Source: Fibrobacterota bacterium (lineage in GTDB: Bacteria > Fibrobacterota > Fibrobacteria > UBA11236). From it: 36,839 bases of DNA. Of this stretch, positions 2,717 to 22,818 are shown piece after piece. The stretch spans positions 1 through 36,839 of the forward strand of contig JAEKLQ010000062.1 of assembly GCA_019509785.1 (NCBI GenBank). The letters are read 5' to 3'. Position numbers and translations under genes: made by a program. Positions within the stretch are counted from its first letter, which is position 1. Every line of letters starts with the position of its first letter. The notes below the pieces were generated by a model. The model saw nothing but the letters and a program-made list of their open reading frames with translations, was not told where the DNA came from and searched no databases.

Positions 2717-4876
2717 ATGAGACCTCTCGATAACCTCCGGAATATCGGCATCAGCGCCCACATCGATTCGGGCAAAACCACCCTGACCGAGCGCATCCTG
2801 TTCTACACCGGCATGATCCACCAGATCCACGAGGTGAAGGGCAAGGACGGCGTAGGCGCGACCATGGATTCCATGGATCTGGAGCGCGAACGCGGCATCA
2901 CCATCCAGTCGGCGGCGACCCGCGTGAAGTGGACCAAGACCCCGTACTATCTGGATCCCAAGGAAGCCGGCGGCACCCACATCAATATCATCGACACCCC
3001 CGGGCACGTGGATTTCACCATCGAGGTGGAACGCTCCCTGCGCGTGCTGGACGGCGCCATCCTGGTGTTGTGCGGCGTTTCGGGCGTGCAATCGCAGTCG
3101 ATCACCGTGGATCGCCAGATGCGCCGGTATTCCGTTCCGCGCGTGGCCTTCATCAACAAGTTGGACCGGTCGGGCGCGAACCCGTACCGCGTCACCGAGC
3201 AGCTGCGCGAGAAGCTGAACCATAACGCCGTGATGGTGCAGATTCCCATCGGCGTGGAAGACAAGCATGCCGGCCTCGTCGACCTTCTGACCATGAAGGC
3301 CTATACCTTCCATGGCCCCAACGGCGAAGAGATCAAGGAAGTACCGATCCCGGACGACCTCCAGGCCACCGCCAAGGAACGCCGCACCATCATGCTGGAC
3401 GCGCTGACCAACTTCTCCGATGAGCTGACCGAGCTCATCCTCGAGGACAAGGAAATCCCGCTCACCATGCTGAAGGACGTAATCCGCAAGGCCACCATCG
3501 AGATGAAGCTGACCCCCGTGTTCATGGGTTCGGCTTTCAAGAACAAGGGCGTTCAGCTCTTGCTCGACGGCGTGACCGATTTCCTGCCGTCGCCTTACGA
3601 CGTGTCGAATTACGCCTTGGACATCACCACCAAGAGCGAAGAGAAGATCGAGATGTATTCGGACGCGACCAAGCCGTTCGTCGGCTACGCGTTCAAGCTC
3701 GAAGAAGGCCGTTTCGGCCAGCTGACCTACCTGCGCGTCTATCAGGGCCGCGTGGACAAGGGCAAGCCCATCTACAACATGTCGACCAAGAAGAAGCATA
3801 ATGTGGGCCGCCTGGTCCGCATGCATGCCAATGAAATGGGCGAAATCCAGTCGGCGGAAGCCGGCGATATCGTGGCCCTTTTCGGCATCGATTGCGCGAC
3901 GGGCACGACGTTCACCGATGGCACGTTGGAAGTCAATATGACCTCCATGCACGTGCCGAACGCGGTTATCGACTTGGTGATCGAAGCCAAGAACCGCGAT
4001 CACTTGGCCAACCTCTCGAAGGCGCTCAACCGCTTCACGAAGGAAGATCCCACCTTCCGCGTGAAGCTGGACGAGGAGTCGGGCCAGACCATCATCTCGG
4101 GCATGGGCGAGTTGCATCTCGACGTGTACATCGAGCGCATGCGCCGCGAATACGGCGTGGAGCTTACGACCGGCCGCCCCCAGGTGGCTTATCGCGAGAC
4201 CATCACCCAGCGCGCCGAGTTCAACTACTCGCATAAGAAGCAGACCGGCGGCTCGGGCCAGTACGCCCGCGTGGCCGGTTATATCGAACCGACCCAAGAC
4301 ACCGTGGACGAGGAAGGCCAGACCGTGCCGGCCCCGGACTACGAGTTCGTGGACGATATCGTGGGCGGCGTGATTCCCCGCGAATTCATCCCGTCTTGCG
4401 ACAAGGGCTTCCAGGCCTGCTTGCCGAACGGTTCCATCATCGGATTCCCGATCGTGCGCGTGCGCGCGGCCATCAACGACGGCAACACCCATCCGGTGGA
4501 TTCGTCGGATATCGCTTTCCAGCTGGCGGCCCGCGGCGGTTTCCGCGAGGCCTATGCCCGCGCCAAGCCCCAGATCCTCGAGCCCATCATGAAGCTCGAA
4601 GTATCGACGCCAACGGAGTTCCAGGGTTCGGTCATGGGCCAGGTGAACCAGAAGCGCGGCCTCATCACGGGATCCACCGAAGAAGCCAACTTCACCATCA
4701 TCAACGCCGAAGTGCCGCTCTCCGAAATGTTCGGATACGCCACCGACCTGCGGTCGCTGACCCAGGGCAAGGCCGAGTTCACGATGGAATTCCTGAAATA
4801 CGCCCCGGTGCCCAAGAACGTGGGCGAGGAGCTGATCAAGAAGTACGCGTCGAACGCCGGCAAGCGGCTGGAGTAA
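2717..4876 (+). CDS. fusA: Elongation factor G
   Basis: This is a ribosomal translocase GTPase of 719 residues, full length. The G-domain motifs are intact: P-loop AHIDSGKTT (about residues 14-22), switch I region [16 protein letters not shown], and NKLDRSG for guanine specificity. Domains II-V follow, including [13 protein letters not shown] in domain IV and the C-terminal [16 protein letters not shown] region. The wording of switch I ([24 protein letters not shown]), and the close match I recall to the Leptospira protein, place it with the spirochaete/planctomycete-type EF-G (spdEFG-like) rather than the proteobacterial form. Family studies distinguish a translocating and a recycling paralogue in such lineages; this one looks like the conserved translocating form. 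It stands alone, not in a str operon with rpsL, rpsG or tuf. A promoter lies upstream and a strong hairpin terminator downstream. Confidence 0.96.
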
Positions 4877-4947
4877 GGCGCGGCCCGCAAGGGCCGGAAA
4901 AGCCAAGACCTTGGCCCGCGGGAAACCTGGGGGCCGTGGGAAACGGA

Positions 4948-4973
4948 GGGACGGTCTTAGGACCGTCCCTTTT
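4948..4973 (+). terminator. Rho-independent terminator after the EF-G gene
   Basis: GGGACGGTC and GACCGTCCC form a perfect 9 bp stem around a TTAG loop, followed directly by TTTT. It lies 72 bp past the EF-G stop codon. The remaining space to the next gene (4974-5143) holds a possible -10 box TACAAT at 5066-5071 without a good -35 partner. Confidence 0.9.
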
Positions 4974-5143
4974 GCGTTTACGCCCTCCGATCGTACGCCG
5001 AAGCGTTGGATCGGGCCGTCCCGGTAATCGACCAATTTCCCTGCTGATTTGCAGCTTGGCGGCGCTACAATAACGATGGCCGTAGCGTCCTAAATCCAGC
5101 TCCGTTGGAATTGCCATGCGGTCGATTTACGAAAGGCATCCTC

Positions 5144-7513
5144 ATGAAATTGCCCTTCTCTTCCCGGTCTACCGCATGGATGCTTTTCCTGTTGCCAGCT
5201 TCGATCGCCCAAGCCGCGACCCTGACCGTTTCCAAAGACGGACGCGGGGCTTTTACCACCGTCCAGGCCGCCGTGGATAGGGCCGGAAAGCGCGATATCG
5301 TCTTGATCCTCGATGCTGCCGTTTACCCGGAACAAGTCACGATCGACAGTACCAAGAACGGGCTGGAGTTGCGTTCCAGCGATCCCACCGCGACCGCCAA
5401 ACCGACCATCCGCTACCAGGACGTCATCCATCAGCATCCCAAGACATGCCAAGAAGCCCTGAATGCGGCCACCATCGATTACGAGGAAAACGGCGCCCTC
5501 CGACTCATCGGGACTACGAACGTCAGCTTGGATGGCATCGCCGTGGATGGCGGAGGTCCGGCGCCTTTCTCTAACCCTAACGTCTGGGGCAACGGGGTTT
5601 CCTGTACGGGGACCCTCTATCCGCTTTTCCACGGCAACGCCGCCCTGGTCCTATCCCGGACTTCCCAAACCAGCGTCCGGGATTGCGCTTTCACCAACGC
5701 TTTTTTCGGCGTGTGGGTGCGTGACTACAACCTGATCGGGGCTTTTTCCGACTTCCCGCAAAACAGCGCCACGGCCTGGGCGCCCTCGCCGCCGGGATTC
5801 GCGGGAACGGGAGGGCATCTATTCGAGAACGACCTTTTCGCAAATAATTCCTTCGGAGCCGCCGGAGCCGAGCTGTATGGATTGCCTAGCACCTTCCGCA
5901 ACAATTGGTTTTTCGCCAACGGACATACCACGCAGTCCACCGCGAAAGCGGTCTACCAAATGCCGGATGGCAGCAATTATCCCGGGGGCGCCTTCTACTT
6001 TTCCGGGGATTTGCTCTGCCCGTGGATCATCGAGCATAATACTTTTCAAAGCAATGCCATGATCTTCTGCGGCGGCTACCGGCCCAACGGGCCGCATCTG
6101 GCGCAGGCCAATTTGATCGGGCCGCCTTTGCGATACTCATCCTTGGACACTGTATTCGGCGCCCCTTTCCAGGAAACCTTTGGGCAGGTCTGGAAGGGCC
6201 TGCGGTGTAATCTGGTGGCGGGGCAAGTGATCCCTCCCGAAAAGTACGCTTGCAAGGTCCAGTTTTCCGCTTACGACAGCGTGGCCGCGAAGAACATCTC
6301 TGTTGATACCATTGTCGCCAATTGCGGTAATTTTCCGGTGATGTACTACATGCCCTATCCGGAAACCCGGTCCGATACGATCGGGCGGGATCTGGTTTCC
6401 GGGAACCGAACCTTCCACGTCGTGAAAACCATTCCGCGTGGCGGGCCCACGGCGCTGTTGTTGGACACCGCCTTCGGGGTCGAAGCCTCGCGGCTGATGG
6501 CCAACCACTGGTGGGAACCCAGCTTCGCGGGGATCGATCCCGCCGCAGCCGGATTCCTGGAACCGCAATGGCCCGCTTCGGTCCCTGCGGATCTGCGGCC
6601 GACCGATGCGCCTTATCGCAACGTGCGCGGCGAAACGGCCCTGCCCGGCCGCATTCCCTTGGCGGATCAAGCCGCTTCCGCCCTGCGCGTGATCCCGGTA
6701 GGGCCGGCGGTGGAAGTGGGGGGAGAGTTGGAGCTTTCCTTCGAGATCCAAGCCCCGGAAGCGACCTCGGACCTTCAGGTGGCGAATCTGGTTCCCGTGC
6801 AAATCAAATCCTTGATCACGGACGGTTTCGGTTACACGCGCAGGATAGCGGACTCCATGACGTTTTACCCGGCCTCTCTCCCCTCCGCGACCCTCCAGGC
6901 GGGATTCAACCGCATCCGCTTGGCGCGGCCTTGGTCGGCGGGCGGGATGGGGTTGGCGCAAATGCTGGTGCGAGGTAGGCTCTCCGACGGCAAGCCGGCT
7001 TACGGCAATTGGACCGCCTTCCCTTGCGGGATCATCCGGAAGGAGATCGGCATCTCTCTCGGGGGAACATCGGGGACCGGTCCCATGGACGCTCCCGCGA
7101 GCGGCAAGATGGAAATCGCTTTGACCCTACCGGCCAATCTGCCGGCGTCAACCAAGATCCTCCTGATCCGGCTTTCCGGACAGCCGATCTTGCGCGTTCC
7201 GACCTCCGGCGATCCGGTCACCTTGGGATGGATGAATTCCTCGGCGGATCCTATCCCGGTTCTTTTACCTGGCGATCCGGCCCAACTGCGTTACGATGGG
7301 GTGATCGCCATCAGCGATCCCCCAGGCTATACCGGACTGTCGCCTTTGCTGCGTTATCCCGGGGCCTTGGCCGGTGCGGCGCCCGCCAAGCCACGGTTTC
7401 GATCGGGGTCCCGCAGCGGCAGACTCGATGCCCTAGGCCGCCGGCTCCCGCCCTTCCGTCACCGGACGCCGTCCACGCCGGTCTTCGCGCCGCGGCAATC
7501 CGGCCGCCTTTAG
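5144..7513 (+). CDS. Secreted right-handed beta-helix (pectin-lyase-fold) protein
   Basis: This is an exported protein of 789 residues. The ATG at 5144 is preferred because GAAAGG lies 7 bp upstream and it opens directly into a signal peptide (MKLPFSSRSTAWMLFLLP, cleavage near AQA-ATL). The mature start TLTVSKDGRGAFTTVQAAVD is the classic opening of pectinesterase-like beta-helices. It is followed by helix rungs rich in Asn and small residues (about residues 25-350: LFENDLFANNSFGAAG, FRNNWFFANG, IEHNTFQSN). The middle and end look like Ig-like or beta-sandwich domains. No complete pectinesterase or polygalacturonase active site is obvious, so the substrate is unknown. The last 35 residues (SGRLDALGRRLPP onwards) are basic and resemble a Fibrobacter-type C-terminal sorting tail. 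The stop overlaps the convergent asparagine-synthetase-like gene by 4 bp (7510-7513). Confidence 0.8.
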   Translation: MKLPFSSRSTAWMLFLLPASIAQAATLTVSKDGRGAFTTVQAAVDRAGKRDIVLILDAAVYPEQVTIDSTKNGLELRSSDPTATAKPTIRYQDVIHQHPKTCQEALNAATIDYEENGALRLIGTTNVSLDGIAVDGGGPAPFSNPNVWGNGVSCTGTLYPLFHGNAALVLSRTSQTSVRDCAFTNAFFGVWVRDYNLIGAFSDFPQNSATAWAPSPPGFAGTGGHLFENDLFANNSFGAAGAELYGLPSTFRNNWFFANGHTTQSTAKAVYQMPDGSNYPGGAFYFSGDLLCPWIIEHNTFQSNAMIFCGGYRPNGPHLAQANLIGPPLRYSSLDTVFGAPFQETFGQVWKGLRCNLVAGQVIPPEKYACKVQFSAYDSVAAKNISVDTIVANCGNFPVMYYMPYPETRSDTIGRDLVSGNRTFHVVKTIPRGGPTALLLDTAFGVEASRLMANHWWEPSFAGIDPAAAGFLEPQWPASVPADLRPTDAPYRNVRGETALPGRIPLADQAASALRVIPVGPAVEVGGELELSFEIQAPEATSDLQVANLVPVQIKSLITDGFGYTRRIADSMTFYPASLPSATLQAGFNRIRLARPWSAGGMGLAQMLVRGRLSDGKPAYGNWTAFPCGIIRKEIGISLGGTSGTGPMDAPASGKMEIALTLPANLPASTKILLIRLSGQPILRVPTSGDPVTLGWMNSSADPIPVLLPGDPAQLRYDGVIAISDPPGYTGLSPLLRYPGALAGAAPAKPRFRSGSRSGRLDALGRRLPPFRHRTPSTPVFAPRQSGRL

Positions 7514-9432
7514 CAAGGCGGCCTGCTTCCGGAAGCTTCGATGTAGCGCCGATGCCAGAGCGCGAAATTGTAGAGGTACCACAGGTGATACCCTTGCGAG
7601 CGCGCCGCATACCCTTCCACGGCGCGGAAATCGATCAGTCCGGTGCGCTTGCAGAACGCCCCTAATTCCTCCCGCATCGTATTCCCAAGGCGCCGCAGGG
7701 CCCATTCATCCATAGGCCTACCCGTCTTCGGCATTTTCCGGTCGAGAATCCCGTCGGGAACCAGGCCGCGGAGAGAGGACTTGAGCAGGGATTTCAGTTC
7801 GCCTCCCGAGGCCTTCAGCCCGGCCGGAATCCCCATCGCGAACTCCACGAACTTGTGGTCGAGAAAAGGCAGGCGCGCCTCCAGACCCGCGCCCAGGCCC
7901 ATCTTGTCCACCCGCATGAGCAGTAGTTCCGGCACGCGAAGGTTGAGATCGAGGTAACTCATCCAATTGATGGGCGCGGTATCCCAAGCCTTAGCCAGGA
8001 AACGTTCGTGGATAGGGCGCAGCACCTCCCAAGAGGTGAGTCCCGCGAATTTGGAATTCAGCCGTGGCCCGAGCAGGCGCATCTTTTCGGCTTGGCCGAA
8101 TTTATCCTCGCCTCCCCAGAAAACCGGCAAGCCTTCGGCGCCGCGCCGCAACCATTCGGTATAGTCGGCGTTCCCCTTGCCCAGCAAGCGCAAGGCGGAA
8201 ATACCCAACCCTTTCAGGGCGCGCGGCACCGGCCAAGCGTCCAGGCGCTGTAGTCGCAGCGCGCGCTTCCAGGACGGATAGCTACAGAAGAGTTCATCGG
8301 CCCCTTCGCCTATTTGGCAAACCGCGACGCCGTTGTCCCGGGCCAGCTTGCCGGCGTAATACAGCAGCGCGCACATCGGGTCGGCGATAGGTTCGTCTTG
8401 CAGCCGTGTCAAGGCGGGCACGAAATCGATCAGATCCTCCACGGACAAAAAGCGTTCGTGGTAGCGTGCTCCCGCTTGTTCCGCCATGCAGCGGGCATAG
8501 CCGGTTTCGTCGCTATAGGAACTGTTTTCCCCATGGAACCCGATGGTAAAGGCCCGCATCGCGCGCTCTTCGCCCTCGGAAAACAGCGCCGCGTTGGCGC
8601 CGGAATCCACCCCTCCCGAAAGCATTACGCCCACGGGCGCATCGCCTTCCTTTTGCGCGCGCACCGCATCGCGCAGGTGCTCCAGAAGGCGGCGGCGGAT
8701 CTCTTCGACCGGCGTTCCCGTCAAAGGTTTCGCATGGTCCCATACGTCCCAATATCGCCGTTCGATGATTTGGCCGTCTTCCCGGATGCGCAACCAGGTC
8801 CCGGGCGGAAGCTTACGGATCCCTTCGAAGAAGGTTTCGGGAGCCGGGGAAGCCTGGAAACTCAGGTAATGGAAAAACGCCGTTTCGTTCAGGGCCCGCG
8901 GCTGTCCCGGATCCTCCAGCAGGGCTTTGATCTCCGAGGCGAAATTGAGACGGCCATGGTGGAGGCTATAGTACAGGGGCTTGATGCCGATCCGGTCCCG
9001 GACCAGCCACAGTTCGCGTGAGCGTCCGTCCCAGAGAGCCATAGCGAAGGCGCCGCGGAATCGGTGGAGGCATTCGATCCCCCATTGCTCGAAGGCGCGC
9101 AGGATGACTTCCCGATCGCCCCGATCGGTTTTCCAGCGGTGGCCGCCGAGGGCGATGAGTTCCTGTCGGATATCGGCATGGTTGTAGATCTCGCCGTTGC
9201 AGGCCAGGCAAATCGATCCGTCCTCGCTGCGCACCGGTTGCCCAACGCCGGCGGAAAGACCGATTCCGGGCGGGCCGTTATGGGCCATCCCGATCATCCC
9301 GTCCGGCGCGATCCAATCGGCTCCGTCGTCGGGACCTTGGCGGGGCATGGCACCGCGCATGTGCGCAAGATGCGCATGCGTAACCCGGAAGCTACCTGAT
9401 GCGAAAGCGAGGGACCCGGAGATGCCGCCCAT
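7510..9432 (-). CDS. Asparagine-synthetase-family amidotransferase with degenerate glutaminase site
   Basis: This 640-residue protein has the AsnB architecture. The N-terminal Ntn-glutaminase-like domain (about 1-200) includes NGEIYN at 79-84 and RDRIGIKPLYY. The C-terminal synthetase domain has the ATP pyrophosphatase loop SGGVDS (272-277), GEGADELF, and ARLPFLDHKFVEFAM. In the family, Cys2 (MCGI) is the glutaminase nucleophile; here the protein starts MGGI, so Cys2 is Gly. The usual HRRLS segment carrying a glutamine-binding Arg is also replaced (MAHNGPPGIGLSAG). Asp106 of the DxEV motif is kept. The synthetase half looks intact, so ammonia-dependent amidation or a different adenylation chemistry is likely. 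Such paralogues often occur in exopolysaccharide or capsule loci, but the only nearby glycosyltransferase is 2 kb away. Product specificity is not known. Confidence 0.88.
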   Translation of the reverse strand: MGGISGSLAFASGSFRVTHAHLAHMRGAMPRQGPDDGADWIAPDGMIGMAHNGPPGIGLSAGVGQPVRSEDGSICLACNGEIYNHADIRQELIALGGHRWKTDRGDREVILRAFEQWGIECLHRFRGAFAMALWDGRSRELWLVRDRIGIKPLYYSLHHGRLNFASEIKALLEDPGQPRALNETAFFHYLSFQASPAPETFFEGIRKLPPGTWLRIREDGQIIERRYWDVWDHAKPLTGTPVEEIRRRLLEHLRDAVRAQKEGDAPVGVMLSGGVDSGANAALFSEGEERAMRAFTIGFHGENSSYSDETGYARCMAEQAGARYHERFLSVEDLIDFVPALTRLQDEPIADPMCALLYYAGKLARDNGVAVCQIGEGADELFCSYPSWKRALRLQRLDAWPVPRALKGLGISALRLLGKGNADYTEWLRRGAEGLPVFWGGEDKFGQAEKMRLLGPRLNSKFAGLTSWEVLRPIHERFLAKAWDTAPINWMSYLDLNLRVPELLLMRVDKMGLGAGLEARLPFLDHKFVEFAMGIPAGLKASGGELKSLLKSSLRGLVPDGILDRKMPKTGRPMDEWALRRLGNTMREELGAFCKRTGLIDFRAVEGYAARSQGYHLWYLYNFALWHRRYIEASGSRPPC

Positions 9433-9534
9433 GGCTCAGGTTTTCCCGGTCGGGGAGGGCAGCGCGGGCATCAGGATAGTTTAACAAATATCCGCGGGGA
9501 ACCAGGAAAAATTGTCTAAATGGAAGGAAGGGAT

Positions 9535-10737
9535 TCAACCCTTCCGGAACCATTCGTTCAGGTCCTTCCCCGTCGGCGGGGCCAGCCGCCTGGCTTCGAT
9601 GCCCATCGCCGTCAGCCGTTCGATGGCCTTGGCCGCCCCCGTGTCCCCGGGACCGTCGGGATCGAAGGCCACGTGCACGGACTTATTCCGGAAGAGCGGC
9701 GCCCAGGCGGCCTTGAAGTTGGCGGCTCCCGGCACGCCCACCGAGGGAAAGCCTTGCTCAAGCAGGGTGAGCGTATCGATGACCCCTTCGCACAGGTAGA
9801 TCTGCCCCGGTTCCCCGTCGAGCAAGCGCGAGTTGTAGGGCAGGGGAATATGGCCCGCCAGGGAAAGTTCCTTCGGCATGGGGCTCCTAGTCCCCGCACC
9901 CATCGCACCTTGGCCTTTGACCCCCGAGCCTTTCGGACCCGGTCCCTTGGATCCCGCCGCATCGGTTTCGATGGCGCGGGCCTGCATGTACACCGCGCGT
10001 CCGGTGATGTCGTAATAGGGGAAGAGCAGCACGTGCCGGTAGAAGCGCAAATGGCCGGCCGCATTGAAGAACCCCATGCGCACCAGATCGTCGAGGCCGA
10101 AAGCGGCTTCGAGCTTACGGCTGATAGCCGCGTAATCGTCGATCATGCGCAGACGCTGGGCGTCCCAGGTCCGTTTGAAAATGCGGCGTTTGGCCAGATA
10201 GCGGCCCGCCGCGCCGCCCACCGGGGCGCAGGCTTCGAGCAAGGCGGCCAGGATGCGCTGCCGCAAGGCTTCCGCCTCCGCCTCTTCGGTTTCCGTCGGC
10301 AACGCGGAGGGCGATAGGACCTCGGAGGGGGACCTGGACAACGGCGGAATCGAAGCAGGTAAGCCGGAGGACGGTAACGCGGATGGTACCTGGACCGGGG
10401 ATTGCCCGGTGCCCGGTGTAGGCTGGACGGGAGAAGGCCGCGATGACGGGGAAGAAGGGGATGGTGCGGCGCCTAGGAAGGCTAGCGCATCCTTGAAGGA
10501 ACAACCGCGCGCCAACTTGACCAGATCGATGACGTCGCCCTTCACGTCCGGGCAGACCCAGCATTTGAATTGGTCCCGGTCCGTCCATATGGAGACCGAA
10601 GGGGTACGATCGCCGTTGGCATGGTTCTCGGGCCTGAGGCAGCGGATGCGCCCATGCTGGACGGGGATGCCCAGATCGCGTAGCACGTCCAGGATGGGGT
10701 GGGCGGCCTTTACGGCCTCGATGTCCGCCTTGGCCAT
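9535..10737 (-). CDS. Stand-alone DnaG-type primase (CHC2 zinc finger plus Toprim)
   Basis: This 400-residue protein is a compact bacterial-type primase. A CHC2 zinc-binding domain occupies about residues 1-90, with ligands C33, H39, C59 and C62 (CWVC). A Pro/Ser-rich linker follows (about 91-145), then the N-part of the primase core (RYLAKRRIFKRTWDA; FPYYDITGRAVYMQAR), a Gly/Lys low-complexity insert (about 262-285) and a C-terminal Toprim domain with E317 (CEG), D359 and D361 (FDPDG). It ends in KDLNEWF, common in phage and plasmid primases. It lacks the DnaB-binding C-terminal domain of cellular DnaG, so it is not the replicative primase. No helicase, integrase or phage gene lies next to it, so it may be a remnant of an integrated element or a domesticated gene. 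Its start is 25 bp from the divergent murB start. Confidence 0.85.
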   Translation of the reverse strand: MAKADIEAVKAAHPILDVLRDLGIPVQHGRIRCLRPENHANGDRTPSVSIWTDRDQFKCWVCPDVKGDVIDLVKLARGCSFKDALAFLGAAPSPSSPSSRPSPVQPTPGTGQSPVQVPSALPSSGLPASIPPLSRSPSEVLSPSALPTETEEAEAEALRQRILAALLEACAPVGGAAGRYLAKRRIFKRTWDAQRLRMIDDYAAISRKLEAAFGLDDLVRMGFFNAAGHLRFYRHVLLFPYYDITGRAVYMQARAIETDAAGSKGPGPKGSGVKGQGAMGAGTRSPMPKELSLAGHIPLPYNSRLLDGEPGQIYLCEGVIDTLTLLEQGFPSVGVPGAANFKAAWAPLFRNKSVHVAFDPDGPGDTGAAKAIERLTAMGIEARRLAPPTGKDLNEWFRKG

Positions 10738-17161: not shown

Positions 17162-17422
17162 TCAATTTTCCTTGAGGACTTGGAATCCGGCTTCCGCTTC
17201 GGTCAGGTCGACCTTCTTGCGGTCCAGGCGCACGGCCACCCAATTCCCCTGCCGACGCTCCACTTCCATGATGACCGCCTTGAAAGGGCCGGAGCCTCCC
17301 CCGGCTCCATACCGGAAGCGCGTGCCTTCCCATCTTTCCGACGGCACGCCTTTGCCTTTCAGGTAGTCTTCCGCCAAGCGCGCCAGATCGGCGGGCTGGA
17401 AATGATCGCAATCGCCTTGCAT
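17162..17422 (-). CDS. Small cytoplasmic protein of unknown function
   Basis: This 86-residue protein is supported by a near-perfect ribosome-binding site (GGAGGA, 4 bp before the ATG) and balanced codon use. It is hydrophilic with no signal peptide: an N-terminal helix ([18 protein letters not shown]) followed by beta-strand-like segments ([24 protein letters not shown]). No family is recognised. It lies upstream of the large secreted metallopeptidase on the same strand (84 bp gap) and divergent from the trehalose synthase gene 142 bp away. Confidence 0.7.
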
Positions 17423-17564
17423 GGGTCCTCCGGATGGAAAGATATCAACGATTCAGCCAATGCCGCAAACCATCCGCCCCCGTAAACGACCTTCTCTCGA
17501 CATTATTCCTCTAGCCCGGCCCAAACTATATCTTCAGGATAAGACGAGGGCCGGAGGAGGCAGT

Positions 17565-20500
17565 ATGGCGGACGCGAACCCGGATCACGGCGACAAACCC
17601 CTTTGGTACCGTGAAGCGGTCATCTACCAGGCCCATGTGAAAAGCTTCCAGGACAGCAACGGGGACGGCGTGGGCGATTTCCCCGGCCTCACCCGCCGCC
17701 TGGGATACCTCGCCGACTTGGGGGTCACCGCCCTCTGGATCCTCCCCTTCTATCCCTCGCCCCTCCGCGACGACGGCTACGACATCGCCGATTATACCGG
17801 GGTCAATCCCGCCTACGGCACCCTCGACGATTTCAAAGCCTTCCTGGACGACGCCCACCGCCGCGGCATCCGCGTCATCACGGAGTTGGTGATGAACCAT
17901 ACCAGCGACCAACATCCCTGGTTCCAACGCGCGCGCCGCGCGCCGCCCGGCAGCCCCGAACGCGATTTCTACGTGTGGAACGAAACCCCGGACAAGTACC
18001 GGGAAGCCCGCATCATCTTCAAGGACTTCGAGTCCAGCAACTGGACCTGGGACCCGCTGGCCAAGGCCTATTATTGGCACCGCTTCTATTCGCATCAGCC
18101 CGATCTCAATTTCGAGAATCCCGCTGTCGAGAAAGCCATGCTGGAAGTGCTGGACTTCTGGATGGACATGGGCGTGGACGGCTTGCGCCTGGACGCCGTG
18201 CCCTACCTGTTCGAAGCCGAAGGCACCAACTGCGAGAACCTGCCCGCCACCCATGCCATTCTGAGGCGCGTGCACGCGCATATCCTGGAACGCTACGGCG
18301 CCGAACGCATGCTCCTGGCCGAAGCCAACCAATGGCCCGAGGACGCGGTTTCCTATTTCGGCAAGGGCGACGAATGCCAAATGGCTTTCCACTTCCCCTT
18401 GATGCCGCGCATGTTCATGGCCCTGCGCATGGAAGAACGCTTCCCCATCACCGACATCCTGGAGCAAACCCCGGACATCCCCGGCAATTGCCAATGGGCC
18501 CTCTTCCTGCGCAACCACGATGAGCTCACCTTGGAAATGGTCACCGACGAGGAGCGCGACTACATGTACCGCACCTACGCGCGCGACAAGGAGGCCCGCA
18601 TCAACCTGGGCATCCGCCGCCGCCTGGCGCCGCTGGTGGACAATGATCGGCGCCGCATCGAACTCCTGCACATCCTGCTCTTCTCCATGCCCGGCACCCC
18701 GGTATTCTATTACGGCGACGAAATCGGCATGGGCGACAACATTTTCCTGGGCGACCGCAACGGGGTCCGCACTCCCATGCAATGGAGCCCCGATCGCAAC
18801 GGCGGCTTCTCCTCCGCCCATCCCCAGCGCCTTTACCTTCCCCTCATCCTCGATCCCGACCATCATTACGAGTCCGTGAACGTCGAGAACCAGGAACGCA
18901 ATCCCTATTCGCTCCTCTGGTGGATGCGCCGCCGCCTGGAGCTTCGCCGCCGATTCCCGGTCTTCGGATCCGGCAAGCTGGAGTTCCTGCACCCGGACAA
19001 TCCCAAGGTGTTCGCTTTCCTGCGCCGCCATGGCAAAGGGGGCGTCGGCGCCGACGTCCCGGACGGCGACGTGGTCCTGGTCGTGGCCAACCTTTCCGCA
19101 TCGCCTCAAACCACCACGCTCGATCTCTCCGCCCTCATAGGCCGCACCGTGGAAGAGCTCTCCAGTCTGTCTACCTTTCCGCCCATCGCCGAAGGCGCCT
19201 ACCCGATCATGCTCGGGCCCTACGGCTATTATTGGCTGCTGCTCAAGCCCGTGCGACCCTTCGCGGGCGTCAGCACCCGGCCGGAAAGGATCCTCAGGAT
19301 GAAGCAGTCCGACTGGGCCGAAGTGCTGCAAGGTCAAGGCAAGGAAGCCTTAGAGCGGGAAATCCTCCCGGCCTGGCTGCCCACCCGCCGCTGGTTCGGA
19401 GGCAAGGGCCGCAGTATCGTAAGCGCCGCGGTTATGGATCGCGTTTTCCCGCCGGGCGCGGGCGACCCCGGCGCCGGGAACGCGACCGGCGCCGACTGGG
19501 CCCTGGCCTTCATCCGCGTGGATTACGCCGACGGGCCTCCCGAAGGCTATCTGCTGCCCCTGGCGCGGGCCCAGGGCCAAGCCGCCGAGGAAGTGCGCCG
19601 CGAGCATGCCGGCGCCATCCTAACCGAGCTCGCCGACGGCGCCGTATCCGTCCTCTACGAAGGCATCTACCATGGCGGCTTCCGCGCCGCCATGCGCCGC
19701 ATGATCGCCGGGAACTACTCCTGGCACGGCCTCACGGGCATCCTGCGCGGCCATTCCCGCCAGGAAGCCTTCGCCGGCCTGGAACCGGACGACGAAACCT
19801 CCCGCGTCCTCTCCGCCGAGCAGAGCAACAGCTCCGTCATTTTCCCCGGTCGGCACTTTGTGAAGTTCCTGCGCCGCCTGGAAGAAGGGGAAAACCCCGA
19901 TCTCGAGCTCCTCCGCTTTTTCGAAGAGCACACCAACTTCCGCCGCGTGCCTCCCTACGCCGGCCATCTGGAATTCGCGTCGGGAGCGGGCGGCACCTAT
20001 ACCTTGGCCATCGCCGAAGGCCTCATCGAGAACCAGGGCGACGCCTGGTCCTTCGCCCTCAAGTTGGCCGCCGATCATTTGCGCCGCGTCCTCAAGCCCG
20101 GCGCCCCCGCTTCGGATGAGGCTTCGGTAAACGCCCTGGACGCGCGCGCGGCCAATTTCGCCGGGCTCCTGGGCCATCGTACCGCCGAGATGCACCTGGC
20201 CCTGGCTTCACGCTCCGATCTCCCCACCTTCGCTCCCGAGCCCTTCTCGCGCCTGTATCAACGATCGCTCTACCAAAGCATGCGCAATCAAGCGGCCCGC
20301 ATCTTCGAGCGCTTATCCAAAGGCTTGTCCCGCCTGCCCCGGGAGCGCGCCGAACTGGGCCGGCGCGTTTTGGAGGCCCGCCCCAAGGTGATGGCCGCCT
20401 ACGCGGGCCTGTTGGACCACTTGATTCCTACGGTTAAGATCCGCGTGCATGGGGACTACCATCTGGGCCAAGTGCTCATGACCGGGGACGACGTGCTCAT

Positions 20501-20891
20501 CCTCGACTTTGAAGGCGAGCCCGCCCGCTCGCTCTCGGAACGGAAGCTGAAACGTTCGCCCTGGAAGGACGTAGCCGGCATGTTACGCTCCTTCCACTAC
20601 GCCGTCCATTCCGCCTGGCCGAAGGAGGAAGCCCAAGGCCCCGAAGCCAAGGCTATGGCCGAAGCCCGCGCGGAGAAATGGCCCCAGGCGATGGCGGAGG
20701 TTTTCGTGCAGGCCTATCTGGAGACCGCAAAGGACGCGTCCTTCATACCCGTAGGAGCGGATAGGGATATCCTGCTTAAGGCGTACCTGATGGAAAAAGC
20801 CGTGTATGAATTGGGCTACGAGCTGAATAACCGGCCGGATTGGGCCCACATCCCCATGGCGGGGATATTGAGGTTGGCGGAGGGCCCTTAG
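17565..20891 (+). CDS. treS: Trehalose synthase-maltokinase fusion
   Basis: This 1108-residue bifunctional enzyme starts at the ATG preceded by GGAGGAGG (17552-17559); the frame is open 48 codons further upstream without coding character. Residues about 10-560 are a GH13 trehalose synthase that interconverts maltose and trehalose: nucleophile Asp210 (DGLRLDAVP), acid/base Glu253 (LLAEANQWP) and stabilising Asp319 (RNHDE). Residues about 600-1108 are a maltokinase: the N-terminal cap [16 protein letters not shown] near 603, then HGDYHLGQV near 962 and LDFEGEP near 981 with the catalytic and metal residues of the aminoglycoside-kinase-like fold. Together they turn trehalose into maltose-1-phosphate, the donor for GlgE. 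No glgE, glgB or otsAB gene is in this window, so the downstream step must be encoded elsewhere. It appears monocistronic. Confidence 0.95.
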
Positions 20892-20992: not shown

Positions 20993-21550
20993 ATGAAAAT
21001 CCCGGTATCGGCGGTACTCTTTACCTTGCTATGGAACGGCTGCCTTTTTAGCCAGGATTCGAAAGAGAACGCGATGGACGGGGAATGGAAAACGGTTTCC
21101 TATACCGGTCGGTACTTCGAGAACAATGACACGTCGGCTTCGAGGGCCCTGACTGATCAGGAATGGAAGATCATTAATCATGATCCCGAATGGTATTCGA
21201 ATATCCGGTTTTTCGAATTCGAGAATTCCACGTTTCATATGGGGCAAATCGATAGTACGGATTCCGCCTCGAGCAAGGTTAAGAGTCTCAATGGGGATTA
21301 CAGGATTTATGATACCGGTCTGTTCCTGAATTTTCACGAATATCCCGATGGTTCCGTATCCTCCGAGACCTACCCGGTAGAACTCAAATCGGATTCCATA
21401 AGCATTTTCCTCTGTTACGTGAGTTTTTCGGATTCTTCTTCGAGTATCTATGCGCGCTTTTACGGTAAATGTCCTCCGGCGATCGAATCGGTTATTCCGC
21501 CGAAGAAATCCTTGGAGTTCGCCATTTCGATCAAAAAGGAAATCCGGTAA
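20993..21550 (+). CDS. Small exported protein, low GC, unknown function
   Basis: This 185-residue protein has an N-terminal signal (MKIPVSAVLFTLLWNGCLFSQ). Cleavage may be by signal peptidase I after FSQ, or a weak lipobox may be used at the Cys of WNGC. The mature part resembles a lipocalin-like or beta-sandwich domain: DGEWKTVSYTGRYFENND, LNGDYRIYDTGLFLNF, SISIFLCYVSF. I recognise no family. Codon use and base composition are clearly more AT-rich than its neighbours, as is the 101 bp upstream region, where TTACTT and TAAATT are spaced 18 bp apart as a possible promoter. It may be a recent acquisition. Confidence 0.7.
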   Translation: MKIPVSAVLFTLLWNGCLFSQDSKENAMDGEWKTVSYTGRYFENNDTSASRALTDQEWKIINHDPEWYSNIRFFEFENSTFHMGQIDSTDSASSKVKSLNGDYRIYDTGLFLNFHEYPDGSVSSETYPVELKSDSISIFLCYVSFSDSSSSIYARFYGKCPPAIESVIPPKKSLEFAISIKKEIR

Positions 21551-21629
21551 GAATACGCTTTCCATCCCGACCGGGATAAATGGCCCGGGTCACCCGATGC
21601 GCTCATTATGAAATGATGGAGAAAAGACC

Positions 21630-21932
21630 GTGCTATACGTGACCGTTAAACTTTTCGGACGAACCGGTAAGCGATGCGAGTTCAGGGACTATGAGGCCAA
21701 AGCCCTGGATATTTTCCGCAAACATGGCGGGGAAATAATGGTAGCTTACTCGCCGGCATTCGATAAAAACCAGGTTGATAGGCCCGATGAAATCCAGGTC
21801 TTGAAAATACCCGACCGATCCGCGTTCGAAGAATTCCTGAACGATCCGGAGCGAATCAAAATGGCCGGGGAACGCGACGGGGTAATCAGGAAAACGGAAA
21901 TTTATATTTCCGAGGAGATCATCAGCTATTAA
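21630..21932 (+). CDS. DUF1330-like dimeric alpha/beta-barrel protein
   Basis: This 100-residue protein starts at a GTG with GGAGA 9 bp upstream. It has the alternating strand-helix pattern of the dimeric alpha/beta-barrel superfamily: LYVTVKLF, then FRDYEAKALDIFRKHGGEIMVAY, then DEIQVLKIPDRSAFEEFLNDPE. The last of these is typical of DUF1330 (a strand, then a sentence-like FxxxxAFxxFxxDPx helix). Members are small cytoplasmic proteins without an agreed reaction. It lies 16 bp before a methyltransferase gene and is probably co-transcribed with it. The AT-rich bias of the previous gene continues here in weaker form. Confidence 0.7.
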   Translation: MLYVTVKLFGRTGKRCEFRDYEAKALDIFRKHGGEIMVAYSPAFDKNQVDRPDEIQVLKIPDRSAFEEFLNDPERIKMAGERDGVIRKTEIYISEEIISY

Positions 21933-21948
21933 GGCAGGAAGTATTCCA

Positions 21949-22818
21949 ATGCCGGACATCAATCCCGATAAGAAAATCCCGGCCCCCGACAATACCGCCG
22001 TCCGTGTGGCCCTATGGCGGGCCCTGCACGTGGAAGCCGATTCGGCGCCGCACGTTTTCGAGGATACGGTCGGTTTGCGGATCGCCGCTCCCGAGGAGGG
22101 CTGGCGGAACCGGCCGGACATGAGCCCCTTCACGAAACCCTTTCGCGCATCCATCTTGGCCCGGGCCCGCTTCATCGAAGACCTCGTTTCGGAACAGGCC
22201 GCCCGCGGCGTCGGGCAGTACGTCATTCTCGGGGCGGGCCTGGATACCTTCGCCCAACGTCGCCCGGAGCTAGCTTCCCGTCTGTTCGTGTTCGAAATCG
22301 ATCAGCCAGGCCCCCAGGCTTGGAAGCGCCAGAGGCTTACCGATCTCGGCCTTGGCCTCCCCGCTTTCCTACGCCTTGTTCCCGTCGATTTCGAAGCCGG
22401 CGATTCGTGGCGGGATCGCCTGGCGGCGGCGGGCTTCGACGGCAAGCGGCCGGCCATCGTGGCTTCCACCGGCGTCAGCATGTACCTGACCAAGGAGTCG
22501 GTGACGGCTACGTTACGCCAGATCGCATTCTTCGCTCCCGGGTCCACCCTCGCCATGTCTTTCTTGCTGCCCATCGAGCTGATCGATCCCGAGATCCGTA
22601 CGGGGATGGAGCGGGCGGTAGAGGGCGCGCGCGCCAGCGGAACGCCTTTCCTGAGTTTCTTCACGGCGGCGGAAATGGTCGCCTTGGCCCGGGAGGCCGG
22701 CTTTAAAGAAGCCCGGCACGTATCCTCCGCCTCCCTGGCGGAGCGTTACTTCGCAGGTCGGACGGACGGCTTGCGTCCGCCCAACCATGCCGAAGAACTC
22801 CTGGTCGCGACGACTTAA
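21949..22818 (+). CDS. PPM1/LCM-type SAM-dependent methyltransferase
   Basis: This 289-residue protein belongs to the leucine-carboxyl-methyltransferase-like family (COG3315 type). Recognisable features are an N-terminal substrate cap (AVRVALWRALHVE, then PFTKPFRASILARARFIEDLV), the SAM-binding motif YVILGAGLDTFAQR (about residues 90-103), the acidic strand end FVFEIDQPGPQAWKRQRL, and STGVSMYLTKESV. Bacterial members O-methylate small acids, polyketide intermediates or unknown targets. The start has GGCAGGAAG upstream and lies 16 bp after the DUF1330 gene. It converges on the marR gene 47 bp away. The substrate is unknown. Confidence 0.88.
   Translation: MPDINPDKKIPAPDNTAVRVALWRALHVEADSAPHVFEDTVGLRIAAPEEGWRNRPDMSPFTKPFRASILARARFIEDLVSEQAARGVGQYVILGAGLDTFAQRRPELASRLFVFEIDQPGPQAWKRQRLTDLGLGLPAFLRLVPVDFEAGDSWRDRLAAAGFDGKRPAIVASTGVSMYLTKESVTATLRQIAFFAPGSTLAMSFLLPIELIDPEIRTGMERAVEGARASGTPFLSFFTAAEMVALAREAGFKEARHVSSASLAERYFAGRTDGLRPPNHAEELLVATT

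Follow-up and report, generated by a model that had tools for sequence, protein, structure and literature searches.

A full-length amidotransferase paralogue with losses in both catalytic halves, a probable pseudoenzyme in a Fibrobacterota genome

The minus-strand gene at 7510-9432 of the window (the whole stretch of 36,839 nucleotides analysed) is a single open frame of 640 amino acids with the N-terminus MGGISG, and its product is most closely related to glutamine amidotransferases of exopolysaccharide loci, not to AsnB proper. Its full-length frame has outlasted what would be expected under neutral drift, and the protection of its invariant residues is almost gone. The gene was considered, as the reading that fits best and with fair rather than high probability, to be a lineage-specific duplicate turned pseudoenzyme and kept for a non-catalytic role. 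The features on which this reading is based are collected in Table 1.

Table 1. Features of the degenerate gene and of its insertion slot (positions in the window)
Feature	Position	Strand	Basis
Full-length degenerate paralogue of exopolysaccharide-locus glutamine amidotransferase, asparagine-synthase family, 640 aa	7510..9432	-	translation, Pfam, 73% identity to L002
Codon 2, GGC (Gly); nucleophile Cys in 20 of 20 compared relatives (L045 aside)	9427..9429	-	
Residues 31-36, RQGPDD replacing HRGPDG	9325..9342	-	alignment
Residues 52-58, NGPPGIG replacing RRLSIID, including R53G	9259..9279	-	alignment
Residues 79-81, NGE, glutamine-pocket residues, kept	9190..9198	-	alignment; roles from PMC6748925
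Residues 272-277, SGGVDS, pyrophosphate loop, kept	8602..8619	-	translation, alignment
Residues 376-385, EGADELFCSY; E376, D379, E380 and Y385 kept, invariant Gly384 to Ser	8278..8307	-	
Residues 512-516, GLGAG replacing SMGVS	7885..7899	-	alignment
Residues 565-570, RKMPKT replacing RKKRGF; Lys567 to Met	7723..7740	-	alignment
Slot between fusA and the TOPRIM gene with a lineage-specific insert (beta-helix gene and degenerate gene)	4877..9534		synteny, five same-genus genomes

Pfam domains Asn_synthase (1.5e-68) and GATase_7 (1.5e-35) cover almost the entire protein. Among the NCBIfam models, TIGR01536 «asparagine synthase (glutamine-hydrolyzing)» is matched with 356 bits (cut-off 267) and TIGR03108 also with 356 bits, below its curated cut-off of 816.9, which the intact paralogue L002 likewise misses (474 bits). 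An in-frame TGA lies immediately 5' of Met1 (TGA GCC ATG), so that Met1 is the only start aligning with the MCGI of the relatives, and an alternative start restoring the Cys is ruled out by this stop. The promoter scan gave no candidate on the minus strand for the gene, no clear Shine-Dalgarno sequence was seen 5' of it, and its GC3 (0.74) is lower than that of L002 (0.84), all of which speaks against the pseudoenzyme reading. A terminator-like hairpin (9526-9545, minus strand; hairpin count not above that of shuffles) overlaps the TOPRIM stop codon, which makes simple co-transcription of the TOPRIM gene and the degenerate gene questionable.

A sequence-only reading of this DNA, in which the strand of the gene is not given, had noted MGGI instead of MCGI at the protein start and a Cys to Gly change by one base, TGC to GGC; the first is borne out by the translation and the second by codon 2 of the paralogue L002, which is TGC. 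Whether close relatives share Gly2, a question raised in that reading, was answered by comparison: Cys2 is present in all of the relatives considered (11 of 11 orthologues and 9 of 9 paralogues). The other changes of the glutaminase half are H31R, R32Q, R52N, R53G, I56G and D58G, the first two altering the HRGPD motif, a change absent from the sequence-only reading. That reading had described the HRRLS segment as lacking; the motif and its glutamine-binding Arg are indeed gone, but HRRLSIID became HNGPPGIG by substitution, without deletion. Gly53 occupies in the alignment the position of the glutamine-binding Arg (AsnB Arg49, human ASNS Arg48), and human Arg48 is part of the glutamine-binding network (PMC6748925). 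The pocket residues N79, G80, E81 and D106 are kept. Compensating frameshift pairs were sought by eye in the codon alignment as a source of HNGPPGIG and of KMPKTG, and none was seen. With the Cys, the Arg and HRGPD all missing, the Ntn-cysteine mechanism of glutamine use is closed to the protein, which would be inactive in this half.

In the synthetase half, the P-loop SGGVDS had been read as intact and is so, and the residues of the GEGADE motif and of the Glu-Tyr dyad are found as well. The later synthetase motifs had also been taken as intact, which is wrong: seven or more positions, invariant or near-invariant among the 20 relatives, have changed (G384S, S512G, M513L, S516G, K567M, G569K and F570T). 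Position 567 aligns with AsnB Lys449 and human Lys466 (1ct9 and 6gq3, aligned via the paralogue L002), and is Lys in all 20 intact relatives compared and Met in the window protein; human ASNS Lys466 is placed within the ATP site (PMC6748925). By these residues the protein is very probably dead as a synthetase too, and some ATP chemistry may be left to it, as SGGVDS, E376, D379, E380 and Y385 survive. The same survivals, beside a lost glutaminase, would fit an active synthetase using free ammonia or a substrate amine, and both AsnB-like PesC and canonical asparagine synthetases accept ammonia. The superfamily also offers clear precedent in beta-lactam synthetase, carbapenam synthetase and lasso peptide cyclases, in which the glutaminase Cys is lost and the synthetase site is functional; these enzymes, however, keep the synthetase lysine, whereas the window protein has lost it together with G569, F570, S512, M513, S516 and G384, and an active synthetase is thus considered improbable. 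The same losses at Lys567 and in the neighbouring synthetase motifs weaken the proposal of the sequence-only reading that free ammonia or another nucleophile may be used, or that adenylation may be the only step left.

An artefact of sequencing, assembly or binning would be conceivable in one draft assembly with 106 contigs, of which the window is one entire contig (C62), and for a Cys to Gly change of one base. It is nevertheless very improbable, as independent codon changes number in the dozens, with two or three codon bases differing from the paralogue at 50 of the 96 derived residues, and as the frame is unbroken and synteny with same-genus genomes holds on either side. The earlier argument for a true loss of the glutaminase, and not a base-call error, is supported, Cys2, Arg53 and HRGPD being lost among 39 changed invariant sites. 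It had been set against the possibility that close relatives have Cys2 and Arg and that this gene carries a sequencing error; the relatives do have both residues, but the changes are too many and too widely spread to come from such an error.

The closest relative of the window protein is L002, an intact paralogue with 73% identity on contig C23 of the same genome, in which the motifs MCGI, HRGPD, HRRLSIID, SGGVDSS, GEGADELFWGY, DKMSMGVSLE and RKKRGFGIP are all found. Its neighbours (a Wzx-like flippase, a methyltransferase, GT4 glycosyltransferases, a Wzz-like chain-length protein and a heparinase II/III-like protein) place L002 in a polysaccharide locus, and its orthologue in the same-genus genome G001 has the same methyltransferase downstream. 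All motifs are kept in the 11 orthologues examined, L002 included, which come from several phyla. WbpS-type amidotransferases make uronamides (PMC7468200), and by analogy L002 may do the same. Contig C23 (132 kb) carries five AsnB-family genes, of which one or more belong to a polysaccharide locus.

The degenerate gene sits outside any polysaccharide cluster, between fusA and the TOPRIM gene, in a slot whose flanking gene order is conserved in five same-genus genomes. It is absent from the visible part of the slot in all five (one contig ends inside the slot). One of the six genomes of the genus carries it, and neither the genomes of 61 relatives nor the 13 loci from a scan of genome contigs yielded an orthologue of the degenerate copy. 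The fusA-TOPRIM interval is variable (roughly 0.8 to 2.2 kb in same-genus relatives, 4.7 kb here) and holds unrelated ORFs in at least one of these relatives. A recognisable mobile element was sought as the inserter, and only short, chance-level repeats were found in 4700-9700. The same insert contains, at 5105-7513 on the plus strand, a gene for a parallel beta-helix-like protein of about 800 amino acids without Pfam match, whose relatives elsewhere in the genus are only 32-40% identical. Elsewhere in the window, 17421-20891 (plus strand) encodes a fusion of 1156 amino acids with an alpha-amylase/trehalose-synthase-type domain and a maltokinase N-cap region, and GC content dips to 0.48 at 21001-22000, the rest of the contig being at about 0.56-0.67.

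In the phylogenetic tree the degenerate gene and L002 are joined at 100/99 support, with branch lengths of 0.46 and 0.064 respectively, a difference of about seven-fold. At the columns invariant in the 11 orthologues, the window protein has changed at 39 of 227; in a leave-one-out comparison L002 has changed at 1 of 228, and the counts for the remaining members range from 1 to 30, with the high values in the two most divergent sequences. Since the split, 96 derived residues have accumulated on the window branch against 21 on the L002 branch, whereas third-position nucleotide changes are alike (126 against 99), which indicates that the difference comes from selection and not from age. Using a custom codon model fitted with six and with three taxa, omega was estimated at 0.15-0.17 on the window branch against a background of 0.024-0.039, absolute values that are rough because synonymous change on the other branches is close to saturation (in the six-taxon fit the synonymous branches are saturated, one having reached its bound; the order of the values is the same with three taxa). 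Equality with the background was rejected (2dlnL 35 with six taxa, 17 with three), and so was omega = 1 (2dlnL 18 and 22, respectively), the estimate being an average over the whole window branch from one genome, from which a late relaxed phase is inseparable.

The main alternative is that of a decaying gene, kept for a time after duplication and then released from selection, that is, a pseudogene not yet interrupted. On the window branch, invariant sites have changed at a rate of 0.17 and variable sites at a rate of at least 0.14, and this near-equality has the look of lost catalytic constraint; it favours decay, and tells against a pseudoenzyme in that such an even spread also fits relaxed constraint without new function. 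The substitutions are intermediate in severity (BLOSUM62 mean of -0.23 on the window branch, between -0.55 under neutrality and +0.52 for the paralogue), and decay is further favoured by the presence of the gene in a single genome of the genus and by its lowered GC3; with one genome only, conservation of the dead state cannot show, which counts against the pseudoenzyme reading. Decay is, however, opposed by the intact frame: in neutral simulations run to 39 invariant changes, about 172 mutations were needed and brought 4.3 stops on average, with a probability of no stop of 0.003 (0.005-0.05 under simpler mutation spectra), and several indels would probably be expected as well, whereas no internal stop or indel relative to L002 was found over 634 codons. 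It is also opposed by the rejection of omega = 1 and by the distribution of changes, residues 101-250 having changed far less (0.067) than residues 1-100 (0.22) or 251-400 (0.21). Decay is regarded as a serious but less likely explanation.

A structure model of the protein (alignment of 13 sequences, mean pLDDT 84.9, pTM 0.89) tells only of a normal architecture, as the alignment behind it is one of intact relatives and point changes do not register in such models; its sole internal stretch with pLDDT <50 is residues 55-62, in the altered HRRLS loop. The best PDB match in Foldseek is 7ylz (TsnB9), with TMq 0.75 and TMt 0.83, further matches being AsnB, human ASNS, beta-lactam synthetase (1jgt) and 1q15. 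Pfam and Foldseek agree on the GATase + Asn_synthase two-domain architecture and on the fold.

Under the pseudoenzyme reading, the ancestor would have been an exopolysaccharide-locus amidotransferase of AsnB fold and of the WbpS / eps_aminotran kind, which was duplicated and relocated, the parent enzyme presumably converting a sugar carboxylate to an amide using glutamine. The window copy has lost the glutaminase residues as well as the invariant Lys of the synthetase and the adjoining motifs. The protein is probably still AsnB-folded and may bind ATP or pyrophosphate via SGGVDS. Its retained role would be non-catalytic, most simply that of a binding or regulatory partner, and as a guess it might assemble with the intact paralogue into a hetero-oligomer or bind the sugar substrate of that paralogue.

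Among known systems, the XrtA/PEP-CTERM eps_aminotran_1 (TIGR03108) and WbpS/WbqG type gives, with TIGR01536, the best NCBIfam match and is collinear over the full length of both domains, and L002 likewise lies in a polysaccharide locus; the window protein differs from this type by its missing Cys and Lys. E. coli AsnB and human ASNS share the two domains, the fold and the TIGR01536 assignment, but with about 22% identity over the fold, without equivalents of Cys, Arg49 and Lys449 in the window protein and, by contrast, with polysaccharide genes around its paralogue. The beta-lactam synthetase group has matching folds (1jgt, 1q15) and the loss of Cys in common with it, but keeps the synthetase site; since the window protein is 73% identical to an intact amidotransferase, its loss of Cys is separate from, and more recent than, that of this group. 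The closest solved structure by sequence and fold is the hydroxyamidotransferase TsnB9, which has the MCG and HRRLS that the window protein lacks.

Another, independent dead-looking AsnB homologue, at 4218-6146 of L045 (cyanobacterial assembly, CALAJO010000127.1), has 643 amino acids in an open frame, is 27% identical to the window protein and carries MGGI, TGSLAS for the P-loop, GIGANPLF for GEGADELF and RLVGPEI for RxKxGF. No second match to L045 was found in its own genome, and conservation of its dead state in kin was rejected, the nearest relative (L067, 42%) and six others having MCGI and intact main motifs. That AsnB-fold amidotransferases repeatedly yield retained non-catalytic binders, of which the window protein and L045 would be two independent cases, is put forward as a tentative and rather doubtful generalisation.

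Loss of the Cys is known in the AsnB superfamily, and in the well-known cases the synthetase site has a new job; it is less common for both sites to be damaged in a copy that has an intact sister. A search of one collection of open-access papers gave none joining «pseudoenzyme» with asparagine synthetase, a weak sign of novelty. The window protein is an annotation trap, since it clears the curated cut-off for a glutamine-hydrolyzing asparagine synthase by a wide margin, and, if the pseudoenzyme reading is true, current family models label such pseudo-amidotransferases as asparagine synthase. With both sites damaged and an intact sister in the same genome, the two genes offer a clean comparison by which to ask whether amidotransferases that have lost their activity are retained for a binding or regulatory role.
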